A DNA stretch of 64,000 nucleotides from Cloeon dipterum (taxonomy: Eukaryota > Arthropoda > Insecta > Ephemeroptera > Baetidae), in NCBI RefSeq assembly GCF_949628265.1, contig NC_088789.1:23305883-23369882 (forward strand), given 5' to 3'. How positions within the stretch are numbered: position 1 is the first letter of the stretch; each line of letters starts with the position of its first letter. The notes under the pieces were generated by a model. It was not told where the DNA came from, made no database searches, and saw only the letters and a program-made list of their open reading frames with translations. Both the position numbers and the translations under genes were made by a program. Positions 3,275 to 17,295 of this stretch are shown in pieces.

Positions 3275-5377
3275 TTATTCCACCTTAGTCTCCGACATAG
3301 AGCTTTCAGTGGGTTCTTCCTCGCTGCTCTCACTTGAATCCTCACTGTCTGTTTCCCATTCAGAGTCATCGTCTGTATCATCAGAGTCCTCCTCAACGCA
3401 TCTGACGTTTAGACTAGTTTTCAGCTGCTTGGTCAGGTTGTCCAGGGCGTTTTCTTCTTCCAAGGTTATCCGCCCTGCGGTCTCCAACTCTTCCAGATCC
3501 CAGCCAATGTCATCCTTTTTAGGATTGTGCTGAAGGAATGTCCGGTTATTAACAATTTATTAATAAATTAGAAAATGTTTTACCTTTGCTAATGAGTCAG
3601 CAAGTTTGGACAGCACTTCATCGGATAAGGTTTGGGTCCAGAGAGAATATGGCTCCAAATACAGCTGAGTGTGAATGTGGTAACCTTCACAGTTTGCGAA
3701 ATTCTTCATCAGGTCCAAGAGGCACTTGATCACAGCAATTCGTCCTGGAAAGACAGAGTTTAGAATTAATTAATCTTGCAAGCTAAAAATAACCCAACTA
3801 AACACTACATAAACACTCTGATTTATGTGTGCTCCCCCTATCAAGATATAATAAAAATTTACCATTTTTTAAAATAGTGATAGTCAGCTCCATTGCAGCA
3901 TTTGCTAGCTTCCAGTTTCTGTATAGAGGTATGCAAAGAGCTCTTCTCATGCAGGACAAAGTCAATTTCTGCACTGAAGTAAATTTTCTAAGCCAGCTGA
4001 ACGTTGCACTGAGCCTTCGTATCGATCTAGCACTCTCGAAACTGAGATCACCTGCAAAAATATTATTAGTTGGTCTTAAATATTTTATTAAGTTGTTTTC
4101 AAACCTTGGGTTGTAATTTGTTCATGTGCCCAGCAGAACACAATTTCAGCCAGGCCCAAAAGTGCTGATTTCTGCTCATCTTGAGTCAGCTTCAAGATTT
4201 CTAGCTTAGGCAGTCTAAGAAGCTGTTCCTGCTCACTGGCAATGAATTCTGCGACAATTTTAATTAATCGTTAAGAGGCTTGTTCAAGTTCAATATTTAC
4301 CATCAGACTTTGGAACCAAGCCCTTCTTGTCTGCAAGCAAGGGCAAAATCAATTCCTCCTCTTCAGCCCAGTCTGCGAGGTAGTGATCTTGGCTGAAGTG
4401 CTTGTTTTCCCAGGTTTCCTGTAGTTTTTCCCGTTCTGATGAAGGTGTGTCATCAGGTGATTGCAGGTCCATTAACTCTGGCAGATCAGCCTGCGAAAAA
4501 AAATCAATTAGACTCTACTTATTTTATTGCAGTCATTTTCTCGAGTAGAAAAAATTCTTTCGGCAGCCATAATTCAATCTCTTGCAAGGTGAAATTGAAA
4601 CCACATAATTTTTGGCAATGATAGAATAATTATAGAGGGCAGTTTTATGACAGTCACAAGAAAAAATATTCTCTAGTGAGGATTTGAACATTAGTTAATT
4701 GTGTATGCATCAATTTACCTCCCTGTGCCTTAGAACTCCGCACTTCTGGTGTGCGAAACCATATTGAGGAAGAAGCAGAGAGTCATCAAGAGATCCCTCC
4801 TCAATTTCTTGATCAATGTACCAATCGAAATCCAACAGCTCTTGTGATACATTTGGTTCTCCTGTAAAATATTCCCATTCCCAACTAAGATCAAAACATA
4901 AAAAAAACGAATGAAATTTACATACCTAAGACTTCTATTTTAGGAATAGCTTTTCCTGACGGAGTTTGTATTAAAATATTAGTCATTTTTAAATTTTCAA
5001 AATGCTGTCCTTTGTTGCATTTGGACAGCGTGACAACATAGTCTCCGGAGTCGACGTCAAAATACCCTTTGGATTTGCCATCCTCGATCACAGGGCCTGG
5101 CAGATGCAGCCTAAAAATTTGCATACTCGTTAAAACTCTCCAAAATGTAGTTAAGTCAAGAAAATGTCAAATTTTTTTCTTTCAAAACGTACCTTAAATA
5201 GAACGGCGAGGCAGAGAAGCACACGATATTCTCGTCCACGTTTATTTCAGATTCGTTGACATCCGTGTAAGGCGCATGAATTCGGAATACTAAACTCTCC
5301 TCGGTTTGCTCAACTTGATATCTAGGCGTGATCATCGTGGTATTTAGAATATGTGAATTATTCCTAAACAATTTCAC
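3275..5377 (-). CDS. SHQ1: SHQ1, H/ACA ribonucleoprotein assembly factor
   Basis: Chaperone that holds dyskerin/NAP57 before it enters H/ACA snoRNPs and telomerase RNP. Eight exons in minus order: 5377-5193, 5110-4926, 4861-4719, 4490-4301, 4248-4105, 4051-3863, 3744-3584, 3529-3275, giving 483 codons with the frame kept throughout. The N-terminal CS/p23-like domain (about residues 15-110) opens with MITPRYQVEQTEESLVFRI. The SHQ1-specific helical domain follows, with FDWYIDQ, YGFAHQKCGVLRHR, DHYLADW, SARSIRRLSATFSWLRKF and RIAVIKCLLDL in family order. The C-terminus (about 430-483) is a Ser/Asp/Glu-rich tail, also common in the family. ATG 5377 is chosen because it gives a complete CS domain; a second ATG 14 codons on (the M of MITPRY) would also fit. 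The start is head-to-head with the BTB gene, 562 bases apart. Confidence 0.95.
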
Positions 5378-5938
5378 ATGGCAGCAAATTTTAGTCCTTC
5401 ACTAAACAAAACAACTAAGGAACTATGTCTCCCGTACTCGTGCTCCCTCTCCGCTTTATTGTCTGTGTGCCTCGTGCTCGTGTGCTGTGTACGGGACACG
5501 CCCCCTTATCCCTTATTGCTATTTTCGCCGCAAGGGGCCTCCGTAGTGACTGCGATTTGCGAGTTGCATAACCTTGGCAGCAGATGGCGACTGTCATTTC
5601 AGGGATATAGGAAGAAAACAATCGTTCGGCTATAAATTTCATTATATTTTGTCTCGTTTCCGTAAATAAACATACAAGAGCGGCTGCTAACAACAGAAAT
5701 ACACTTAAAGGTAATCGGCGAGAGCTGGAGTTGTCGGCCGGCACCGCCCGGCTCTCGCGGGCGGCGACGGTTCGCCTGCTGTGCGGGGATTAATATCGAC
5801 TAAAGGTCACGGCATTCATTTTGATAGACCACGGGCGAAATTTTGTGCACGTCAATGAACCGACCCTAATTAGACGATATCGGCGCGATTGATTACTAAT
5901 TTCGCTATGTTTGTTTCAGGCGGCCGCCTTTAAAAACC
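5378..5938. promoter_or_regulatory. Divergent promoter region, SHQ1 / BTB gene
   Basis: Spacer between the SHQ1 start codon (minus) and the BTB start codon (plus). It is GC-richer around 5710-5790. A likely splice acceptor (TTTGTTTCAG, ending at 5919) precedes the BTB start by 19 bases, so the BTB gene has an upstream 5' UTR exon here or further left. No clear TATA box. Sharing of promoter elements is inferred from spacing only. Confidence 0.5.
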
Positions 5939-8900
5939 ATGTCTACTGCCCAACAGTTTTGCTTGAGATGGAATAATCATCAGCCGAACTTTGTAACCGT
6001 GTTTAGTTCCTTGTTACACAGCCAGGCCCTCACAGACGTCACACTTGCTGCCGATGGACAGCAAATAGAAGCTCACAAACTTGTGCTTTCAGCTTGCAGT
6101 ACTTATTTCCAGGTCGATTATTTAGCCTTTGATTGTTTTGGTTATTTAATTTGAATTATTTCTTTAATTTCAGGCGCTTTTTACTTCATACAGTGGTCAT
6201 CAGCATCCTATTGTGATACTGAAAGATGTCACTTTCAGAGACCTTCGAACTATGGTAGATTTTATGTACTCGGGAGAAGTGCACGTTACCCAAGAACAAC
6301 TTCCTTCAATTATTAAGGTATCGAAACATGGGATTTGTCTTGGAATTGGTTAAAACTTAGCTCCATCTGTAGACGGCTGAGATGCTGAAAGTGAAAGGAC
6401 TCGCTGAGGGCCAGGATATGTCTCACGTGGACAAATCACAGGTAATAATATGAAATCTGGATACTATCCAGTTTACGGTTAACTGCATTGCAATAATGAG
6501 TGTATTTCCTGAACTAGATTTTTTGTTGCATCAAATTGTGAAAAATTTCAATGGGCCAATCAATTGCAAGTGGACACTTTTTTAATATTTACTCCTGCTT
6601 CTTTTACTCAGAATCGTATATTATTTTATTTTATTTTATTTCATTTTAATGGTCCAGAATAAGACTAAAAAACCTTTCATTACTGAAAAACAGTAAGGAA
6701 ACACATTCTAATTGCAAAGGACACGCAGCTCTCCACGGAATCGTCGCGGCTGTCGTGCGAGGCGCTGGGTGCGTCCACGGAGTCCCACCAGACCTGGAGC
6801 TCTGAAAGGCGAAGTCCCTCGCCGTCGATTTCCCCCTCGGCCGCCTCGAGACGCAAGAGGATGCGAAAGTCGTCGACGGGCTCCACGTCCGGCTCAGGGG
6901 TGGCAGAGCGAGTGTCGGACCACCAGAGCGAAGTTGCATATCCCCACCACTCGCCTCGGCTGGAGCAGCAGGGCTCGGCGCAGATGAACCTGTCGACGGA
7001 CATGTCCGAGCGGAGCATACGGGAGCAGGCGAGCACCGACTCGGAAATCCAGAACTGCTCGCAGGATAGCGGGAACGAGCAGATGCCTTTATCCATGGTA
7101 GCGAGCATTCGCGTCCTCAGGTCAGTTGTTAATTTTCTGCTGTCTCGGTTCAGGTCCACCCTGGCGTGCAGCAGCAGCAACAGCAGCACCCGAGCAGGGC
7201 CGTCGAGGAGGTGCCCAGCCCCCTGATGGAGCCCAGCGCGGCCCACCACTACTCCCCCCTCAGCGCGTCAGCTGGTGAGACACACTCCTTTTCCTCCTCC
7301 CCCTTTTCACCTTTTTTTATATTTTTGAGGGCGTTTGTGGATATTGATTTGATTAACCAGCAAGTGTTTCTCTGTGCTTTCTATCTCTTGTGTCTGTTCT
7401 CGAAACGAAATTCAGTCAAATCAGTGTACTTGATAACTCTTTACTTGGAAAGGAACTGGAATTGGGTGGTTAACCAGCAAGTTTTTTCTCTTCCAATAGA
7501 TTCTTGTTTTTTTCCTTGCAAATTTGCTGCGGCGGGGGATGGATGGCGTTCAGTCAGAGGCACTTGCTGGGTAACATCAATTCTGTTTCTGGCAGGGCAC
7601 CAATTTCGGATGTGAAAGCATTCTGTACTCGCAATTGGCCAAGCTAATTTAGCATTTTCAGGGTTTGCTCACTGCATTCTGAAGCAATTTCTCTCGTGCA
7701 ATTTTTTCTGTAAAAAATCTTGGATTTTTTAACGTAGAAGTCCTGTAAAAATTATTTTGTATGCTGATTTTAAATTATTTTGCTGGAAAAGGAAGCATCC
7801 AGCCAGTATTTTTTTTAATAGTCACAAAGACATGATTTTAATCTCTAGATTTTTGTATTGTGGCAGTTTTAGACCGTTTTGGAGTGCATATATGATAATA
7901 TTGATGTGTCAAAAGCAGGGTTTGCCAATTTTTCTATGCACCACTGGTTATTTCGCATTAAACTAGTCAGACAACCACTAATTTCTTTTCGTAATATAAT
8001 TACTGAAAAGATTATATTTTGTGCCACAAAAGATATATAGAGTATGTACAATTCAATTAAAATGTTAGTAAAGACATAATTTTTTAAAAATCAGTGACAG
8101 AAAATCTTTATTTTTGCAAAATGCAGTGGGGTTTACTGAAAGAGATAAAACTCGTTTGTCTGCGAACTCTTTCAAACGTTTAAAAATTGCGTAAATTGTG
8201 CGCATTAGGCACTGAAAAAATAAAAGATTTTATTTAATTCAAAATCTTACCAAGAATCATGATTCATTTCGATAAGAAATAAAAAGAAGAGAAAAAATGT
8301 CTAAATATATTTGATTTACAGGCCTTTTTTCTATGTAGAGAATTTTAAGTATGTGGTGAGCTTGCAATAAAATTCTATCAGAAAACGTTTGTTAAGAAAT
8401 TTTTCAAGTTAATGCCAGAGCCAATTGCGATCGGAACGAGAGTCGAGTTCACGGTGCAGAATGCTTGCCGAACGCAAATGAAAGTCGAGTCGCTGATCAT
8501 GCCCGTCTAATGTAGGCTTCCAATGGGACCCGAGCCACAGCAGCGTGTACTACCCCCGCTACCCGCACCCCTCGTGTTCGTTCATCAACACCGGCCCCCC
8601 GACCATATCTCCGGACGCGCTGCGGCACAACGTGGTGCCCGCGTTCCAGCCGAAGCGGCAGTCGCCGTGCAGCATCAACATCCCGTCGGTGTCGCAGGCG
8701 AGCCCGGCGCCTTCGACGCCGTCGCCATCGGCGCCGCCGGCTGCGACGCCGCCGACGTCGCCGAGTCCGACGGTGCGGCGCAAGCGGACGGACACGCAGC
8801 GCGACGAGAATTTTCTGCAAGCCCTGGAGGCAGTGCGAACCGGCGGAATCGGATTCTGCAAGGCGGCTCGCATGTATGGCGTCAACAATCGGACGCTGTG

Positions 8901-9249
8901 GCTCGAGTACCGCCGCCGGGGCTATCCGATCACGCGTCCGAGCCTGAAGCCGCGGGCCACCACGCCGCAGGAGTACCAGTACCCGACGGTCGTGATGAAG
9001 AAGGAGCCGGGCGACTCGAGCTGCAGCAACGACGATTCGACCTTGGGTGAGGGCACCTCCTCCATGCCCCCCACCCCCGAGCAGCAGCAGCAGCAGCAAC
9101 AACAGCCGCCCCCGCAACAGCAGCAACAGCCGCCGCCCCCGCAGCCCCAACAGCAGCAGCAGCAGCAGGCGGTGAGCCAGAACCAGGTCGCCTACCAGCA
9201 GGCCACGCCGGCCGAAGTCATGTTTCTGCAGTCCAGCGACATTTTCTGA
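5939..9249 (+). CDS. BTB-pipsqueak transcription factor (psq isoform)
   Basis: Nuclear DNA-binding regulator of the insect BTB (ttk/bab/psq-like) group. Exons: 5939-6112, 6174-6317, 6373-6441, 6720-7097, 7154-7274, 8516-9249; 539 codons, in frame. Residues 1-120 are a BTB domain of the insect type (FCLRWNNHQ, TDVTLAADGQ, AHKLVLSACS, HPIVILKDV, FMYSGEV, AEMLKVKGL), expected to dimerise. A Ser-rich linker with the basic patch RRKRMRK follows. The last exon carries a single pipsqueak helix-turn-helix at about residues 388-432 (RDENFLQALEAVRTGG, CKAARMYGVNNRTLWLEY), then poly-Q/poly-P and a short tail. Intron 7098-7153 is only 56 nt. The exact orthologue is not identified, so no symbol is given. 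The shared exons end in phase 1 at 7274, which also fits the alternative exon at 11977. Confidence 0.88.
7275..8515 (+). other. Intron before the psq terminal exon
   Basis: AT-rich intron of the BTB gene from the GTGAGA donor at 7275 to the TGTAG acceptor at 8515. I see no further coding exon or repeat in it. Confidence 0.6.
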
Positions 9250-11976
9250 CATCCACGCGACAAGAAATAATCCAAGGCGAAGGCCTCGACGTCTCACTCG
9301 CTGAACTTCTACCAGCACTATCCTTTCTACTGAGAGCGGGGTGTTTCGAGGCCAATCGGATCACGCACGTTGGACTGAAGTGATGTTTGAAGGATTGCAA
9401 TTTTTGCGGTGTCGAATCGCTGAACTTACAGCCCCACCCCACGTGGGGAAAACTGCAATTTTTTAGTTGAAGAGCCATGATCGTGTACCAAGTGCTATGG
9501 AGTTATACATATATAAATTACTAAGATTTTTCTCGCGAGCATTTAACAAGGAAACCTGTATGTGCACTAAATTTAATAGCAATTTTCTTTCATCTAACAT
9601 CTTTATTTTTGTGATAATTCACTAAAATATAATTTGGGACCAATCGTGATGATATTTTGGTATGAAAATTCCCCTTGATGAGACGAATCGATTGATCTTT
9701 ACGATAAATTGCTTTGATTGTATTAATACTTCAATTTTATGTCATAATTTTAAACTCGTACAAAAGCTGATTAAATTGGCTATTTTTAAATTTAAAACTT
9801 TTAAAGGCATCAATAATAAAAAATTAAGAAAGGACAGTCATTTCTTTAAAGATCGTTCGATCCAAAAGTCTTGGTAAAGGAGTTTCTGCATACAAAAATT
9901 CATAATGATTGGACCAATTTTGTCAATTTGAAAAAAATAATTAAAATAAAATCCCCAAAAGATGCCATGCTAATTATAGGCTCTGTAAAGTCTGTAACTT
10001 ACGAAAAATTAATCTGCCATTTTTTTATTCTAGATATTATGCAAAATTTGCTTGTAAAATTGGGGATGTTGTACATGGGGTTTTCTTGTAATTTGAATTC
10101 ACTTTTATTTGCTACCAATCATTGAAACCAAACTTCATTCCTAAATGTGAAAACCAGACTAGAGTGGTTCTTGTCATTTATTTTGCAAACAACGTTAAGT
10201 GTCATAAAATCTCAATAATTTTACTAGGAGTAATGTTGCAGAACACGCGGAATAGATTGATTAAAAAACGATAATAATCAGAATTTCTGCTGGCTCAGAG
10301 GTTCGTGTTATTTTGAGAGCTGCGGATTCTTTTTATAGACGAATTGCTTGCTGATGGACCGAATTGGTTCAACAACTGTAAATAATATGCATTACCAGCT
10401 TCATTATACATACGTGTACACTTTCTAACAGACACACACTCGTACTTAAATGTTTAGATTTCGTTTTAGGATGCCATTAGAGAGGTAAAAGAAGTCTATG
10501 AACTATTACGAGACGTAATACAAATAATTATCAATGTGAACTTACCATAGTTGTTGATAAAAAAGGTGATGCACTTGAAGTCTACTTAAATGGCTTAAAT
10601 TAACAATTAGGTGGACCTCATTATTTAAAGTTATACATACAAAAAATATATGTATTCGATGAAACCAGAACGGTAGCTAAAGAATGTATGTTTAGTGCCA
10701 TAATATGCATGCTGATTTTATCATTTTGTAACGTGTAAGCGACGAAGGAACATTTATTCCTTAAATTGATGTATACTAGAAAAAACGTTTCATGTAATCA
10801 CGAGAACTAGTATTCTTAGAGAAAAAAATATCTTGCTATATGATCTGCAATAAATTATGTACGGTCAATAAATGTTGACTACGAGAAATACTGTGTATTT
10901 TTATTTTCCAGCCGCACAGAGGAAACACTTGCTTTTCTAATAATTGGGGAGTAAACTAATAACTAATTCACCAATAATTGGAAAAGTCCATTTGCCTACA
11001 GATGATCTCGCCATGCAATTTTTCGGATGCTTCCACTGTGATTTCAGTTTCTATCTTGTTGCTGTGAATTTTTCTTGGCTTGACTAAAGGACAGTCCAGT
11101 GTGTTTTTTTCAAAAGTTTCAGGGAATAACCGCTCTTTCCCAAAATTGTTTTTAGACGTAAAAAAATACGAAACCGTCTATTTTAAAAATTATAAATATT
11201 AAATAAACCTCGAATTTAACTATAGGTTCTTGTGTGTCTTGCATGAGAAGCCTGAAAATTTATTAAACGGCTAAATTATACAAACAAATCCCTTCAGCAT
11301 ATCTTAAAATGATATTTATACGGAGGATTTTAATTTTAAAATTATATCTACAGAAATAGCGTTATTAATTATATGTTTTTTCATTTCTCTCCATCAGCTC
11401 AAAACTTTTTTATAATTGCATTTATATTATTCTCTTTAGCAGAATGGCTTGAATTTTTCAACAATTTTCTATGGTTTTTGGCAAAATAAAAATATGAAAT
11501 ATACCTGACCTGCTAGTCAAACTCAGATAGTTTAAAAACGTTACCTTGAACCGTGTTAATGAACCATTATTTACAAATATTGTGGAAAATTCTTAAATCT
11601 TAGGGCTTTTCTGGAAAGTAGAAAATAGCACACCGATCTATTCGTATTTTCTAGATAAGTCATATCATCACGGTTGAATGAAAACTGGCTTGAAAATTCT
11701 ATTTTGAAACATTTCCCATGCAAAATACCTTCGGAGCCTTATAACTACCAAACTCTGTAAATTCTACAAAAATTTAATGCTGGTTGCCAAAATCTAAAAC
11801 GTCAAACCTTAGGCTTTTCCCTGTAAGAGCTGGATTTAATCTTAATAAATCGAAGTGCAAGTAGCCTAAAATTGTATATTTATAAACCATCTGCTAGCGA
11901 CTTAAAACTCAAAGGACTTCCTCAAATAATGGCAAAAGAATTAACAAGAATAAATTAATTTTCCCGTTTTCTCTAG
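9250..11976 (+). other. 3' UTR of psq isoform and intron to the alternative terminal exon
   Basis: Non-coding. AATAAA signals at 10849-10854 and 10867-10872 probably end the psq transcript, giving a 3' UTR of about 1.6 kb. From there to 11976 it is AT-rich intron for the other isoform, ending in a pyrimidine-rich acceptor (TTCCCGTTTTCTCTAG). A perfect 12-base palindrome with a CACGTG core lies at 9437-9448. Confidence 0.55.
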
Positions 11977-12749
11977 GCAAAGGCTCGCTGTCGCCAAAGC
12001 AAAAAAGAGGCCGTCTCCTAATCCGTCAACCACGCTTAAAAAAGGAAACCGATCCGCTAAGCTTCGAAAGCGACCCAGAAGACCTGGACTCGCCACAGCC
12101 ATCGACGTCGCAACACTTCCTTCAGGTGCCGCACCTCAAGGTCGAGCGGCAGACCTCGGAGCCGCTGCCTGCCAAGTCGTCTTTGCTGCAGGTGCCGACC
12201 CCCGCCTACCTGCCCAAACAGCATTCCCAGCCCCTCCTGCCGAGCCAGCAGAGCAAACCCCTGACCCCCAAGTCGTCCATCCTGCTGCGGCAGGCGACCA
12301 TCACGCTGTCCTCGGAGGCCGGCACCAGCGGCCGGACGTACAAGGAGCAGGTGCCGGTGCTGACGGTCACCGCAGAGCCGGCGCCGCGCAGTCTCGTCCG
12401 CAGGGAGCCGATCAAGCGAGCCATCTCGACGCCGGTGCCGTCCACCTCGGACCAGGAGCGCCTCGGACACTGTCCACTGCTGCGGCCCGGCCCGGCGCTC
12501 GGCTGCAACTTCTGCTGGAACACGATCGACCAGCACAACCGCATCCTGCGCCGCAAGACCAAGTACTACTGCCCCGAATGCCAGACCAATTTATGCATCG
12601 TGCCCTGTTTCCAAGAGTACCACCAGAAGTTCGACCGCCAGACGGCGTCCACCATTCGCTCCTCGTCGACGCTCGCGTCCGCCCTGCTCGGCACGTCTGC
12701 CTCCTCGCCTGGAACGGTGGAAGAGTATGCGGCCACGGCTTCACCTTGA
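11977..12749 (+). CDS. Alternative terminal exon of the BTB gene with piggyBac-type zinc ribbon
   Basis: Open frame beginning straight after a strong splice acceptor, with no start codon of its own near the acceptor. It reads in phase 1, the phase left by the BTB donor at 7274; joining gives 552 codons with no stop. It encodes a Pro/Ser/Gln-rich linker, then at about 12501-12640 a cysteine cluster: CNFC, then YYCPEC, LCIVPCF and YH (C-x2-C ... C-x2-C-x4-C-x3-C ... H). This is the pattern of the zinc-binding ribbon at the C-terminus of piggyBac-family transposases. No DDE transposase core is present. Seen: phase, acceptor and motif. Inferred: that it is used as an alternative C-terminus, in the manner of lola or mod(mdg4). 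It could instead belong to another, unseen upstream start. Confidence 0.72.
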
Positions 12750-15700
12750 ATTTAATATTTTAATTCAACATTTTTAGACTTGGGAAATTTATTCAGTTTT
12801 ATTTTTTCTTACAGCTACCGAGCAAGCTTAAAAAAACATACCATCCCCTTAAAAATTAATTGGAGATTCTTAAAATTTTTGTTATTTTCTCGTGTCCGTG
12901 AAATTACGGAAATTATATTGCAATTAATGCAGTCGATTTTCTGGAAAAATGCATTAATCCTCTGATTCTAAACTCCTTGGCAATTTGCAAATTCAGAATT
13001 TTGGGTCCAAAAAATTTAATAGAGCTCCCAAGTCAAGAAATTTTAAAACCCTTGAAAAGAATAGGGAATTTTGGTGATACACAGGGTTTCCCCTTGCATC
13101 TAATTATCAACTTTATCTCTCTAAAAAATTATCTTCTGACTGAGAATTTGCACTCATTGGTGTAACAAAATAATCTACGTACATTTGGGACACGATATCT
13201 TGCCCGCATTGTTTTCAATTAAATACTAAGCAAAGTTGGTGTTTTAAAAAAGATGAAGTAATTTTAAACAACACAATAACAAATTACTGTGATAGAAATT
13301 TCCTGTAAAAATGCCCAAACTCACATTCATTTTGGCGTTAAAATAGATCGAAATTAATTTGAGGATGCCTTTTGGTGCGAAGGCAGATTGACTTTTTATG
13401 ATCTCAAGCTATTTTTTCACAAACTTCATCGCTTTTTTTAATTTTCTTCTCTTCAAAGCAACATTTCTAAAGGTTTGGAATTAACTCAAACACTAAACGC
13501 ATCAGCTATATAGAAATCAACATTGCTCCACAACTCCTCTACGAAAATTAAAGGATTTTACTGCAAAGAAATATATATATATTAAATATTTTTAGAACAT
13601 AAATTAGATTCAAACTAAGCGATAAACACGTGTTTCGTGTGTGAAATAACTGTCACCTCTCTTCCAAAGTTGAAACGTTTATTCACATATTATATTTTTG
13701 ACGTACTAAATCATTTTTCCTCTTTGGAATTAATGTCATACAACGAAAGAATATTCAAATTTGCGACCTTGCGTGCAACTTCTGTATCGTCACTCAATGT
13801 GCCTATGAACTGTTCTTCTTGCTTCACTTTGTAAAAATGTAATTTAATAATTATATTTACATGGGATCACTTTTGTCGATGCCTTGCTCAACTATAGCGC
13901 GTCGTGTGACTTGAACCACACACACGTGTCAGTTATTATTTTTCAAGAGTTAAAGAATTTAAATGGTTTTAGGAGCCGAAATTCAACACGCGTCATCATA
14001 CTTTAATAGTGCAAAGCACCAGAAAGTACATTCGTGGAAAAAAATTAACAGAAAAGCACAAAAATCTTTACAGAAATCCTTAACTGTTGGTTTCATTTTA
14101 TTGGATGTGAAACTTTTCAGATATATATGTGATTGTATATTGTATGTCACATTCGAATAAAAATATTGTACTAGATTTCTCAGGATCTACTTGCATGTCA
14201 TTTTCTCTACCAATAATTATTAGTGAATGGTGAAGAATGATAAACCGTTTTCGATTACGGGTTCACAAATGTTCAACTGTGTTGCTTTTATTTCATCTTC
14301 ACATAGTAACAGTAAAATAACATTACAAATTCAACATTCAAAACACAATATTAGAGATCTCGTTTGGACATCTCCCTTCGCATGGAATCAGTTTAAATCG
14401 ATCGTAAAAATTTAATTAACGTAACGTATTTACACAGTAATCAACACTTTCAAAAAATAAGTCATTTGTCAAGCATGACTAGCTTTCTTCAGCAACTTGT
14501 TGCGATTGAATAGTAACATCATAGCAAGTTCAACTATCTTATCACCTGGGGTTGGAATTTGAGTTGTGATTTTTTTTTGCAACTTCAGCTGATGAAGGGG
14601 ACATACATTCAATGGGTTATTTATGCGTAATATATCTTTAAAGATTTTTACAGTTTTTTTAAGAGTTCTAAAAGCAACATGGTAATTTGTTGCGTGTTGT
14701 AATCAGTTTAAATTACTCTTAGTTTATCTGAAAGGAATGACTTGCTGATACGAGGCGACAGGGCTGAGCCTCTACCCTGTTGGCTCGTATTCCGCACAGG
14801 TTACAAAAAAAAAAAAAAAGAAAATTCATCAAACAACAATTCCAGAGCCATTTAACACAATCCGAATCCGCCTTCGTCATCATCTTCGTTCGCGCCGCCC
14901 ACAGCACCCTCCGCGCCACCAATAGCACCCTCCTGGAAAGAGTTTGCATTTTAGATAAATATTACCACTCGTAAAGCATCTTAACTCTGCGGCCAATTTT
15001 CTCACAAATTTAGGTTAACTTTGGCATTAACTGAATCGTTAGGAATAAATTTATGGCATAAATTGGCAACGAGGAATTTCCGGGGTGTTGCAACAAAATA
15101 AGTAGAAAATGCGGAACGATTTCTAAACTGTTGCAAAATTATGCTGTTTTGAACGGTCTGGGATTGAAAATTTCCTTAAATAGGATTAAAGCGCAAAATT
15201 AAATTTCCAATGACTTTAAAGAATGGAAAATATTTATTAATTCATCCATAGTGGTCTCAGCCAGCCAGCAAATTTTGGGTCACGTGGGCAGCCGCCAGTT
15301 AAAAATGGTCAATAATTAAAAAGTGCAGGGGAAAAAATTTCTTGTGGCCCCTTGGACAGTTAAGCACTATCAAACTTCACGTTTAAAATATTGTCAGCCG
15401 CACCAGCCGCCAGTGAAAATGGCCAGCTGCTCAGCGAAAAATTGGGTAGGCCTGTCCCGCCACGCAGTGTTCGAAAAATGCCAGCTCTTTTAAAATAATT
15501 TCGACCAGGCCGGATTTAACAGGTATTTAGCCTCCTAAATAAGCTAAAATTAGGGAATTATCAAAATAAAATAATAATTATACTATAGATTACATCTCTA
15601 CCTTGAATTTTAAGACTTCAATTTTGAAAATTATATAATTAACATACAAAAATAAAATCTTAACAGTGTTTCAGTAGTTAACGACCTATTTTAACCATAA

Positions 15701-15821
15701 ATTTAAAAAAATCCCATTTATGGCTGAGTTTAACCTTCTTTGCTTAAACCTTAAACCGGTTGGTCAAAATCGCGAAAATTACCCCTGCCAGCCACCGCAT
15801 TAAATCTCGCGGCTAAGGCCT
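12750..15821. other. 3' UTR and intergenic, AT-rich
   Basis: No coding exon recognised. AATAAA at 14156-14161 is a candidate poly(A) signal for the zinc-ribbon isoform. A run of 15 A's lies near 14804. Two imperfect direct repeats containing CAGCCGCCAGT(T/G)AAAAATGG-like sequence lie at about 15286-15310 and 15399-15424; their nature is unknown. Confidence 0.5.
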
Positions 15822-17295
15822 TCAGTAATATCCCATGATATCCACGATAATTACCTCTGCCGAGCCTTTATTTGGCGATATGTACGAGGGTGCCGCCTTC
15901 TCGATAACCGACGCCTTAGACAGCGGTGCCGTTCCTTTCGGCAGTGGCAAATCTCGGGCCAGCCTAGAGTACTCCACATCCATGTGCTTGATGAAGGAGC
16001 TGTTCAAAGCCCGAGCTGCCATTTCCGGGTCCTCCTCGTCGAACCCTTGCAACAGTTCCTCCAGGGTTTGCACCTGAAGCGATCGGATTAGGGAAAACCC
16101 CCTAGAAATACTAACAAAAGCACCTCTGGAGGGTCGCAGCAGTTGCCCCACTCCTTGAAGGCCTTCTCCGCGGCCACGGTGTCTCCTCGCGCCAGCTGGA
16201 TGAGCACCAAGGCCACGGCTAGCCTGCCGATCGAGCCTGTACTTTCGTTTTGTTGGTGCATGCCGATTTCCCTCCGAACGGCGTCTGTTGCCTGGTCGTA
16301 CATGCCCAGCTTTACCATGATCCGAGCGACTTTGCTCGCGTATTCCGAGCCTTGGCGAGCATTGTCCTCAGTCTGTAAGAAATCAAATTCATTTTTACTT
16401 CTCAAATCATGAGTTCAAACATTTTAAAATTTCATGCAAAATTAATTCTTGATTAAACAGCCCAATTTCAAGTTTAAAAATTAGAAATGAGATCTAAGAA
16501 AATTCTTTAAAACAATCCAAACTTAATTTGTTTTCATAAACATAAACAGCATTAACAATATTTTTAAAATGTTCCTTGCGAAGTAAAAATAAAATAATTA
16601 CCATGACAACGTCACAAGCTCTCTGGTACAGACGAAGAGCCTGCTCTGGATACTGAGATTCAAGAATTTTCGCCCCTTTATCTAAAGCTTGCGCCCCAGA
16701 GTCGCCAGAGCCGTGCTGTTGGTAAAGCGTACAACTCTTCTCGGCAAGCATTTGGACGTCTCTCAGGTCGCCAAGCTCTTTGCACACCAGCATTGCCTGT
16801 TCGTAATTCCTAAAATTTGATTATTAGATACATTTTTAGAAGAAAAATCAACAACTTACTTTCCAGCGTGAAACAAACTAGTATTATCAGTAAAGGAAAA
16901 ATATAATTATTATTTGACATTTCAGATAAGACGTTTAAAAATAGAAAAGGATACGCTCGATTTTGCTTGTTGCAATCGGCAGCTTTCATCAGACAGTCTT
17001 TGCACTGCTCAAAAGCTTTGGCGTTCCTGAAGCAGGTTGCTATTTTCCAAAATTCATAAATTATCAGCTTTACTAAGTATGTACATAAATATAATTATTT
17101 AATCTCACCAGCTTTAGCATACTCGTCGGCAGCAATGTCAAAGTCTGGTCTCCATTTCAGCAGAGACGTTTTCATGCTGCAAAATTAATGTCAACTCATA
17201 GAGCACAGAAATGACAAATTTGCACAAAATTCATACCATTTCTCAGCGTTCTTGATGTGCTCCAACCCTTCATCAAACTTTTTATTCGATGCCAT
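15822..17295 (-). CDS. NAPG: Gamma-SNAP (NAPG), with a one-base frame break
   Basis: Soluble NSF attachment protein gamma; couples NSF to SNARE complexes for disassembly at membranes. Exons in minus order: 17295-17237, 17176-17109, 17039-16955, 16877-16860 (18 nt), 16810-16602, 16372-16124, 16073-15822. Family landmarks in order: FDEGLEHIKNAEK, LLKWRPDFDIAADEYAKA, FRNAKAFEQCKD, RALFHAGK, LALRLYQRAC-like helices, ARGDTVAAEKAFKEWG and LLQGFDEEDPE. These fold as a TPR-like helical sheet. The spliced length is 940 nt, one base too long: the reading KNYE and the reading QAMLVCKELG, which are adjacent in the family, are in different frames across the AAA at 16800-16802. Without one A the protein would be 312 residues, equal to the human protein. 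All other exons are intact, so an assembly error is more likely than a pseudogene. Confidence 0.88.

Follow-up and report, generated by a model that had tools for sequence, protein, structure and literature searches.

This work addresses the question of whether a gene for a BTB protein in Cloeon dipterum has two different ends, and where the second of them came from. The locus lies in a 64,000-nucleotide stretch of contig C4 (NC_088789.1, positions 23,305,883 to 23,369,882 of the forward strand), which is called the window here and whose own numbering is used below; the genome-wide searches covered the 190-Mb genome with its 10 contigs. Five shared exons for the BTB part are followed by two terminal exons, of which exon A encodes a pipsqueak (psq) helix-turn-helix (HTH) and exon B a predicted zinc module. 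A sequence-only reading of this DNA had described a lola-like locus in which a transposon-derived module was captured as an alternative C-terminus. We hypothesize that the locus is one Tramtrack (TTK)-type BTB gene with alternative C-termini, one of them a piggyBac-derived zinc module, and the probability of this explanation is put at about one half. The view of one gene with two ends appears supported by the phase, the coding statistics, the lack of Met in exon B and the lack of an intervening coding block. This part of the earlier description stands, although the piggyBac origin of the module is not established.

The five shared exons (5939-7274) were translated without a stop and left one base over, that is, they end in phase 1. 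Terminal exon A (8516-9249, plus strand, stop codon 9247-9249) carries the pipsqueak HTH and a Gln/Pro-rich tail. Terminal exon B (11977-12749, plus strand, stop codon 12747-12749) contains 256 whole codons with a basic N-terminal stretch and the zinc module. Joined to exon A, the shared exons gave a protein of 539 amino acids, and joined to exon B one of 552, each with a single terminal stop. The phase, the continued frames and both protein lengths of the sequence-only reading were thus reproduced by translation. The strongest single point for exon B as a dependent 3' coding exon is the absence of Met, which occurs in none of the 256 codons; ATG is also absent from the open frame from 11898 on. 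Therefore, exon B cannot be translated alone but depends on a coding exon upstream of it that ends in phase 1. The donor of the BTB exons at 7274 fits this phase, and no candidate upstream gene other than the BTB gene was seen. The G+C content of exon B by codon position (0.59/0.52/0.82) is similar to that of exon A (0.62/0.53/0.88). On codon usage trained on the shared BTB exons, its own frame was the best of six, with -16.4 bits in all compared with -40.7 to -141.4 bits for the five others. Since the stretch is G+C-rich, exon B is open in a second plus-strand frame as well, and an open frame by itself is a weak argument for coding. Exon B has a G+C content of 0.53-0.70, whereas that of the 13 segments of 200 bases covering 9400-11999 is 0.26-0.38; there is therefore no other coding-like block between exons A and B. 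As judged from these sequence features, exon B is very likely a terminal coding exon of the BTB gene.

The shared exons, all on the plus strand, belong to a TTK-type protein. Exon 1 (5939-6112) is the start of the chain and exon 2 (6174-6317), with an open frame, continues the BTB domain; both matched PF00651 (C4:23311887 at 38.5 bits and C4:23312050 at 30.6 bits, respectively). The domain ends in exon 3 (6373-6441), and the BTB alignments reached residues 113-118 in most phmmer rows. Exon 4 (6720-7097) encodes a Ser-rich linker, and exon 5 (7154-7274) is the last of the shared exons, with the phase 1 end and the donor G/gtgaga. The N-terminus of the protein reads MSTAQQFCLRWNN and includes FCLRWN at residues 7-12, ahead of the BTB domain. 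The motif FxLRWN, found in exon 1, is the hallmark of Tramtrack-type BTB domains and has been reported in arthropods alone except for a few plant proteins, where lateral transfer is presumed; its variable position is described as hydrophilic, whereas it is Cys here (PMC11426971). The BTB identity was also obtained by phmmer from solved structures, including the BTB domain of the TTK-type CG6765 (E 3.7e-10). Over the domain, the best five other BTB places in the genome share only 50-56% identity with it; the gene is therefore no recent duplicate. Multiple isoforms are common among TTK factors, and the DNA-binding domain is typically what distinguishes them (PMC11426971). The splice sites were scored with rough matrices of general frequencies, and the donor matrix fits the short introns of this gene poorly. 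On this scale, the donor at 7097, which is followed by a 56-nt intron, is weak. The introns in 6112-7153 are 55-61 nt long, except one of 278 nt, and their donors gtcgat, gtatcg, and gtagcg are unusual and scored poorly on the general matrix.

The psq exon is what it had been taken for, as HTH_psq matched exon A with 50.4 bits at a Pfam cut-off of 20.4. HTH-psq is itself counted among the transposon-derived domains, its source being the pogo transposase (PMC10027918). The long Gln/Pro tract of exon A, made of CAG/CAA and CCN repeats, lies at 9076-9170.

The module of exon B (12468-12623, plus strand) contains eight putative zinc ligands in the order His, CxxC, CxxC, Cys, Cys, His, which resembles piggyBac and PiggyMac under the scheme of PMC8086355. 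The motif reads CxxC-x18-CxxC-x4-C-x3-CF-x2-YH, and exon B has seven cysteines, none of them outside the module, in a span of 46 residues. A regular expression for such a pattern, written after the motif had been seen, gave one match when the window was translated in all six frames. The order of ligands is the same as in PiggyMac, including the His upstream of the first CxxC, but the last spacing is C-x4-H in exon B and CxxxH in PiggyMac (PMC8086355). Moreover, the module ends with PCFQEYH, similar to CFEKYH in piggyBat, the only piggyBac-family chain listed. The piggyBac-type cysteine pattern claimed before is present in its ligand order. On the other hand, the profile search that had been proposed as a check gave a zf-Tnp_2 (PF13842) match of only 14.9-19.7 bits depending on the stretch, under the cut-off of 24, and other fingers matched about as well. 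As a yardstick, a real 36-residue piece of piggyBat scored 25.4 bits with zf-Tnp_2 in the same scan. For three HIT-finger pieces, which reached 40-49 bits with their own family, no zf-Tnp_2 match was listed at E up to 10, in a scan whose filters drop most matches above an E of about 0.1. Among 40 shuffles with Cys and His fixed, none matched zf-Tnp_2 at E of 0.0013 or less and one did at E 0.051. No transposase core was listed in exon B by Pfam, as the sequence-only reading had said, and DDE_Tnp_1_7 was not found there. In NCBIfam, the only match was a weak one to an SprT-type zinc domain (E 0.0053, 16.3 bits at a cut-off of 175).

Several results weigh against a piggyBac origin, the sub-threshold zf-Tnp_2 score among them. 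The bacterial CoiA_N profile (16.9-19.5 bits over about 20 residues) outranked zf-Tnp_2 by E-value in every scan, an ANCHR-like B-box stood near it with 11.8-17.7 bits, and one Cys-rich shuffle matched an unrelated family at E 0.00075. When exon B was compared by phmmer with solved structures, ZNHIT3 (E 0.083) and ClpX fingers came out on top, none of them significant, and piggyBat was not among the matches listed. Two AlphaFold2 single-sequence models were without confidence (mean pLDDT 40.1 and 50.4). In piggyBat, a His stands at the place of the fifth Cys of exon B, and the gap between the CxxC pairs is 12 residues compared with 18. Furthermore, the genome search for the piggyBac core (PF13843), which found none, does not prove absence since the control genomes gave none either, and tblastn against viral and prokaryotic collections, which hold no insect genomes, confirmed no relatives.

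Another explanation keeps the gene and its alternative exon but takes the module for a treble-clef, B-box, or HIT-like finger, or for a lineage-specific finger with convergent spacing; we regard it as possible but doubtful. It draws on the sub-threshold matches to CoiA_N, the ANCHR-like B-box, HIT and B-box beside zf-Tnp_2, on the first place of ZNHIT3 in phmmer, and on the readiness with which Cys-rich decoys gain similar random matches to other families. However, the ANCHR-like B-box is unspecific, as it also matched two of the three HIT pieces. A HIT finger ends with a Cys after its His. No Cys follows the last ligand His (CF..YH) in exon B, and its score with the HIT finger profile (PF04438) was 11.1-13.7 bits, below the cut-off of 24.7 and far from the 40-49 bits of the real pieces; identity as a HIT finger was rejected on these grounds. 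By comparison, the zf-Tnp_2 score comes closer to that of piggyBat. The piggyBac family is the best-fitting eukaryotic family for the module and the most likely single source, and a piggyBac-derived module is, on sequence grounds, somewhat more probable than any other origin taken together.

In the preferred explanation, the proteins would share their N-terminus, and alternative splicing together with alternative polyadenylation would decide which C-terminus follows. A transcript ending after exon A would encode a protein with the pipsqueak HTH, and splicing past exon A to exon B would produce a protein with a two-zinc module akin to the Cys-rich C-terminal domain of PiggyMac and piggyBat. From what is known of these families, the BTB part would multimerise, the C-terminal part would select the target, and the module is predicted to bind two zinc ions. 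The target of the psq HTH would be DNA, and that of the zinc module DNA or a chromatin protein. The module is basic (computed pI 8.6), so its target leans weakly to DNA or nucleic acid. In the family, the domain of T. ni piggyBac was reported to bind DNA, and that of PiggyMac to bind weakly to the histone H3 tail and not to DNA (PMC8086355). Capture of the zinc module, with the catalytic core left behind, is probably an old event.

There are two candidate routes to exon B. In the first, the donor at 7274 would skip exon A, and in the second, a donor within exon A would be used. The candidate internal donor (9044-9052, plus strand, TGG/gtgagg, exon side to 9046) is in phase 1 like the entry to exon B and sits between the psq HTH and the Gln/Pro tract. 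The predicted join of 9046 to 11977 has an open frame of 729 amino acids that contains the BTB domain, psq, and the zinc module. Exon B would then lie downstream of psq in a longer isoform, and the 539-residue form would arise when this donor is unused. We consider this unlikely as the route to exon B. The donor scored 2.41 bits, better than three of the five model donors, and is one of only two sites in exon A above 2 bits, the other being 9171 (2.51 bits) in another phase. However, four sites in exon A scored at least 0 and one of them is in the right phase, which could easily occur by chance, and the donor matrix has the weaknesses given above. The use of 9046 is compatible with the preferred explanation, so the probabilities of the alternatives overlap and do not sum to one. 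The earlier claim of two alternative endings is thus retained as two exons in phase, but not as two mutually exclusive ends, since the donor at 9046 permits a protein with both modules. Of the acceptors, which had both been called good, the one at 11977 is so (6.46 bits), whereas the one at 8516 is mediocre (0.13 bits). Each exon had also been credited with poly(A) signals of its own. A candidate for the exon A transcript is AATAAA followed by T/G-rich sequence (10867-10872, plus strand), and hexamers do follow both exons, but their counts (13 after exon A against 8.6 expected from base composition, and 8 after exon B against 7.2) are near expectation, and they were dropped as support for two ends.

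A further possibility, though quite improbable, is that exon B is part of a small independent gene whose 5' exon lies unseen somewhere in 10890-11976. The 1.1 kb offers enough room for a promoter plus a short first exon, and several acceptor-like sites lie there. However, this interval contains no coding-like block (G+C 0.27-0.36), and the lack of Met in exon B and the BTB donor in matching phase are against it. An unexpressed, degraded transposon remnant, to which the weak likeness to a transposase zinc finger and the inverted repeats around exon B (five of nine pairs) could be ascribed, is hardly credible given the intact 256-codon frame with coding composition, the lack of a second copy, the lack of a piggyBac core found in the genome (by a search without positive control), and repeats that are short, imperfect, and mostly A+T-rich, with no chance estimate.

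The genome context was examined for traces of a source element. No second copy of the exon B protein or of its module was found in the genome, and each matched only itself. A search of the genome with the PF13842 profile returned a single place, exon B, at E 0.77 and below the cut-off. The transposase family DDE_3 matched 49 places, so transposase families are detectable in this genome. Nine inverted-repeat pairs were found in 10900-14200; the five that flank exon B have arms of 16-22 nt with 77-88% identity, and the nearest of them has 22-nt arms (77%). The flanking pairs are unconvincing as old terminal repeats, a judgement made with neither a chance estimate nor a scan for piggyBac end motifs. 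An old capture with a lost source, or a finger of non-transposon origin, fits this context, and a fresh insertion does not. We tentatively suggest, at a little under even odds, that one BTB gene of an arthropod uses, as alternatives or together, two target-binding modules related to mobile elements: a pipsqueak HTH and a core-less piggyBac-type zinc module, retained as an exon of the host, whose source transposon has since gone from the genome.

The arrangement has close parallels. In lola and mod(mdg4) of Drosophila, shared BTB exons are likewise joined to alternative C-terminal exons, but these encode mostly C2H2 fingers in lola and FLYWCH in mod(mdg4), where the present locus has psq or the piggyBac-like module; trans-splicing was reported at these loci, and there is no indication of it here (PMC11426971). 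The main TTK domain types named in the relevant part of that source, supplementary lists aside, are C2H2, HTH, and FLYWCH, and a piggyBac-like module is not among them. The clearest precedent for the idea is CSB-PGBD3 of primates, in which host exons of ERCC6 are spliced in frame to an alternative 3' terminal exon that is piggyBac-derived (PMC2268245). In CSB-PGBD3 the transposase is complete, and a TTAA duplication and related MER85 elements accompany it; exon traps of this kind have been proposed by its authors as the way in which piggyBac elements persist (PMC2268245). In contrast, the present locus has only the zinc module, and no core or relatives were found in the genome. BTB is also combined with mobile-element-related domains in the vertebrate ZBTB11, which has an integrase-type zinc domain, and in KCTD1 isoform b, which has a Crypton recombinase (PMC12062965, PMC3212892); they differ from the present locus in the type of element, in the N-terminal position, and in being vertebrate. 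The locus probably unites two known principles: its C-terminus would be chosen in the manner of lola, and a transposase domain would have been captured as in CSB-PGBD3, with the zinc module alone kept. Among the matches listed in the open-licence literature, supplements aside, none described a piggyBac-type zinc exon in a BTB gene; nevertheless, orthologues may already be annotated.

In the neighbourhood, an SHQ1 gene lies at 3800-5400 on the minus strand (PF04925 and PF21413 above the cut-off) and is transcribed away from the BTB gene, so a shared promoter region at about 5400-5900 is possible. At 15800-17100 on the minus strand, SNAP-like exons converge on the 3' end of the BTB gene (PF14938 at 16.1 bits, below the cut-off, in one of two frames); by eye, they resemble gamma-SNAP. 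Elsewhere on C4, at 21645915-21653878, two FLYWCH, one HTH_psq, and one BTB stretch lie on the same strand within 8 kb, a further compact locus of BTB type that carries modules related to mobile elements.

If exon B is expressed and piggyBac-derived, it would mean that the target-recognition zinc module of a transposase can be added alone, without catalysis, as a swappable end of a multimerising BTB scaffold. The exon-trap idea from CSB-PGBD3 would then hold for arthropods too, and for a module stripped of the rest. It would also be a short path by which mobile elements give rise to new transcription factors, within a family that diversifies by its C-terminal exons.

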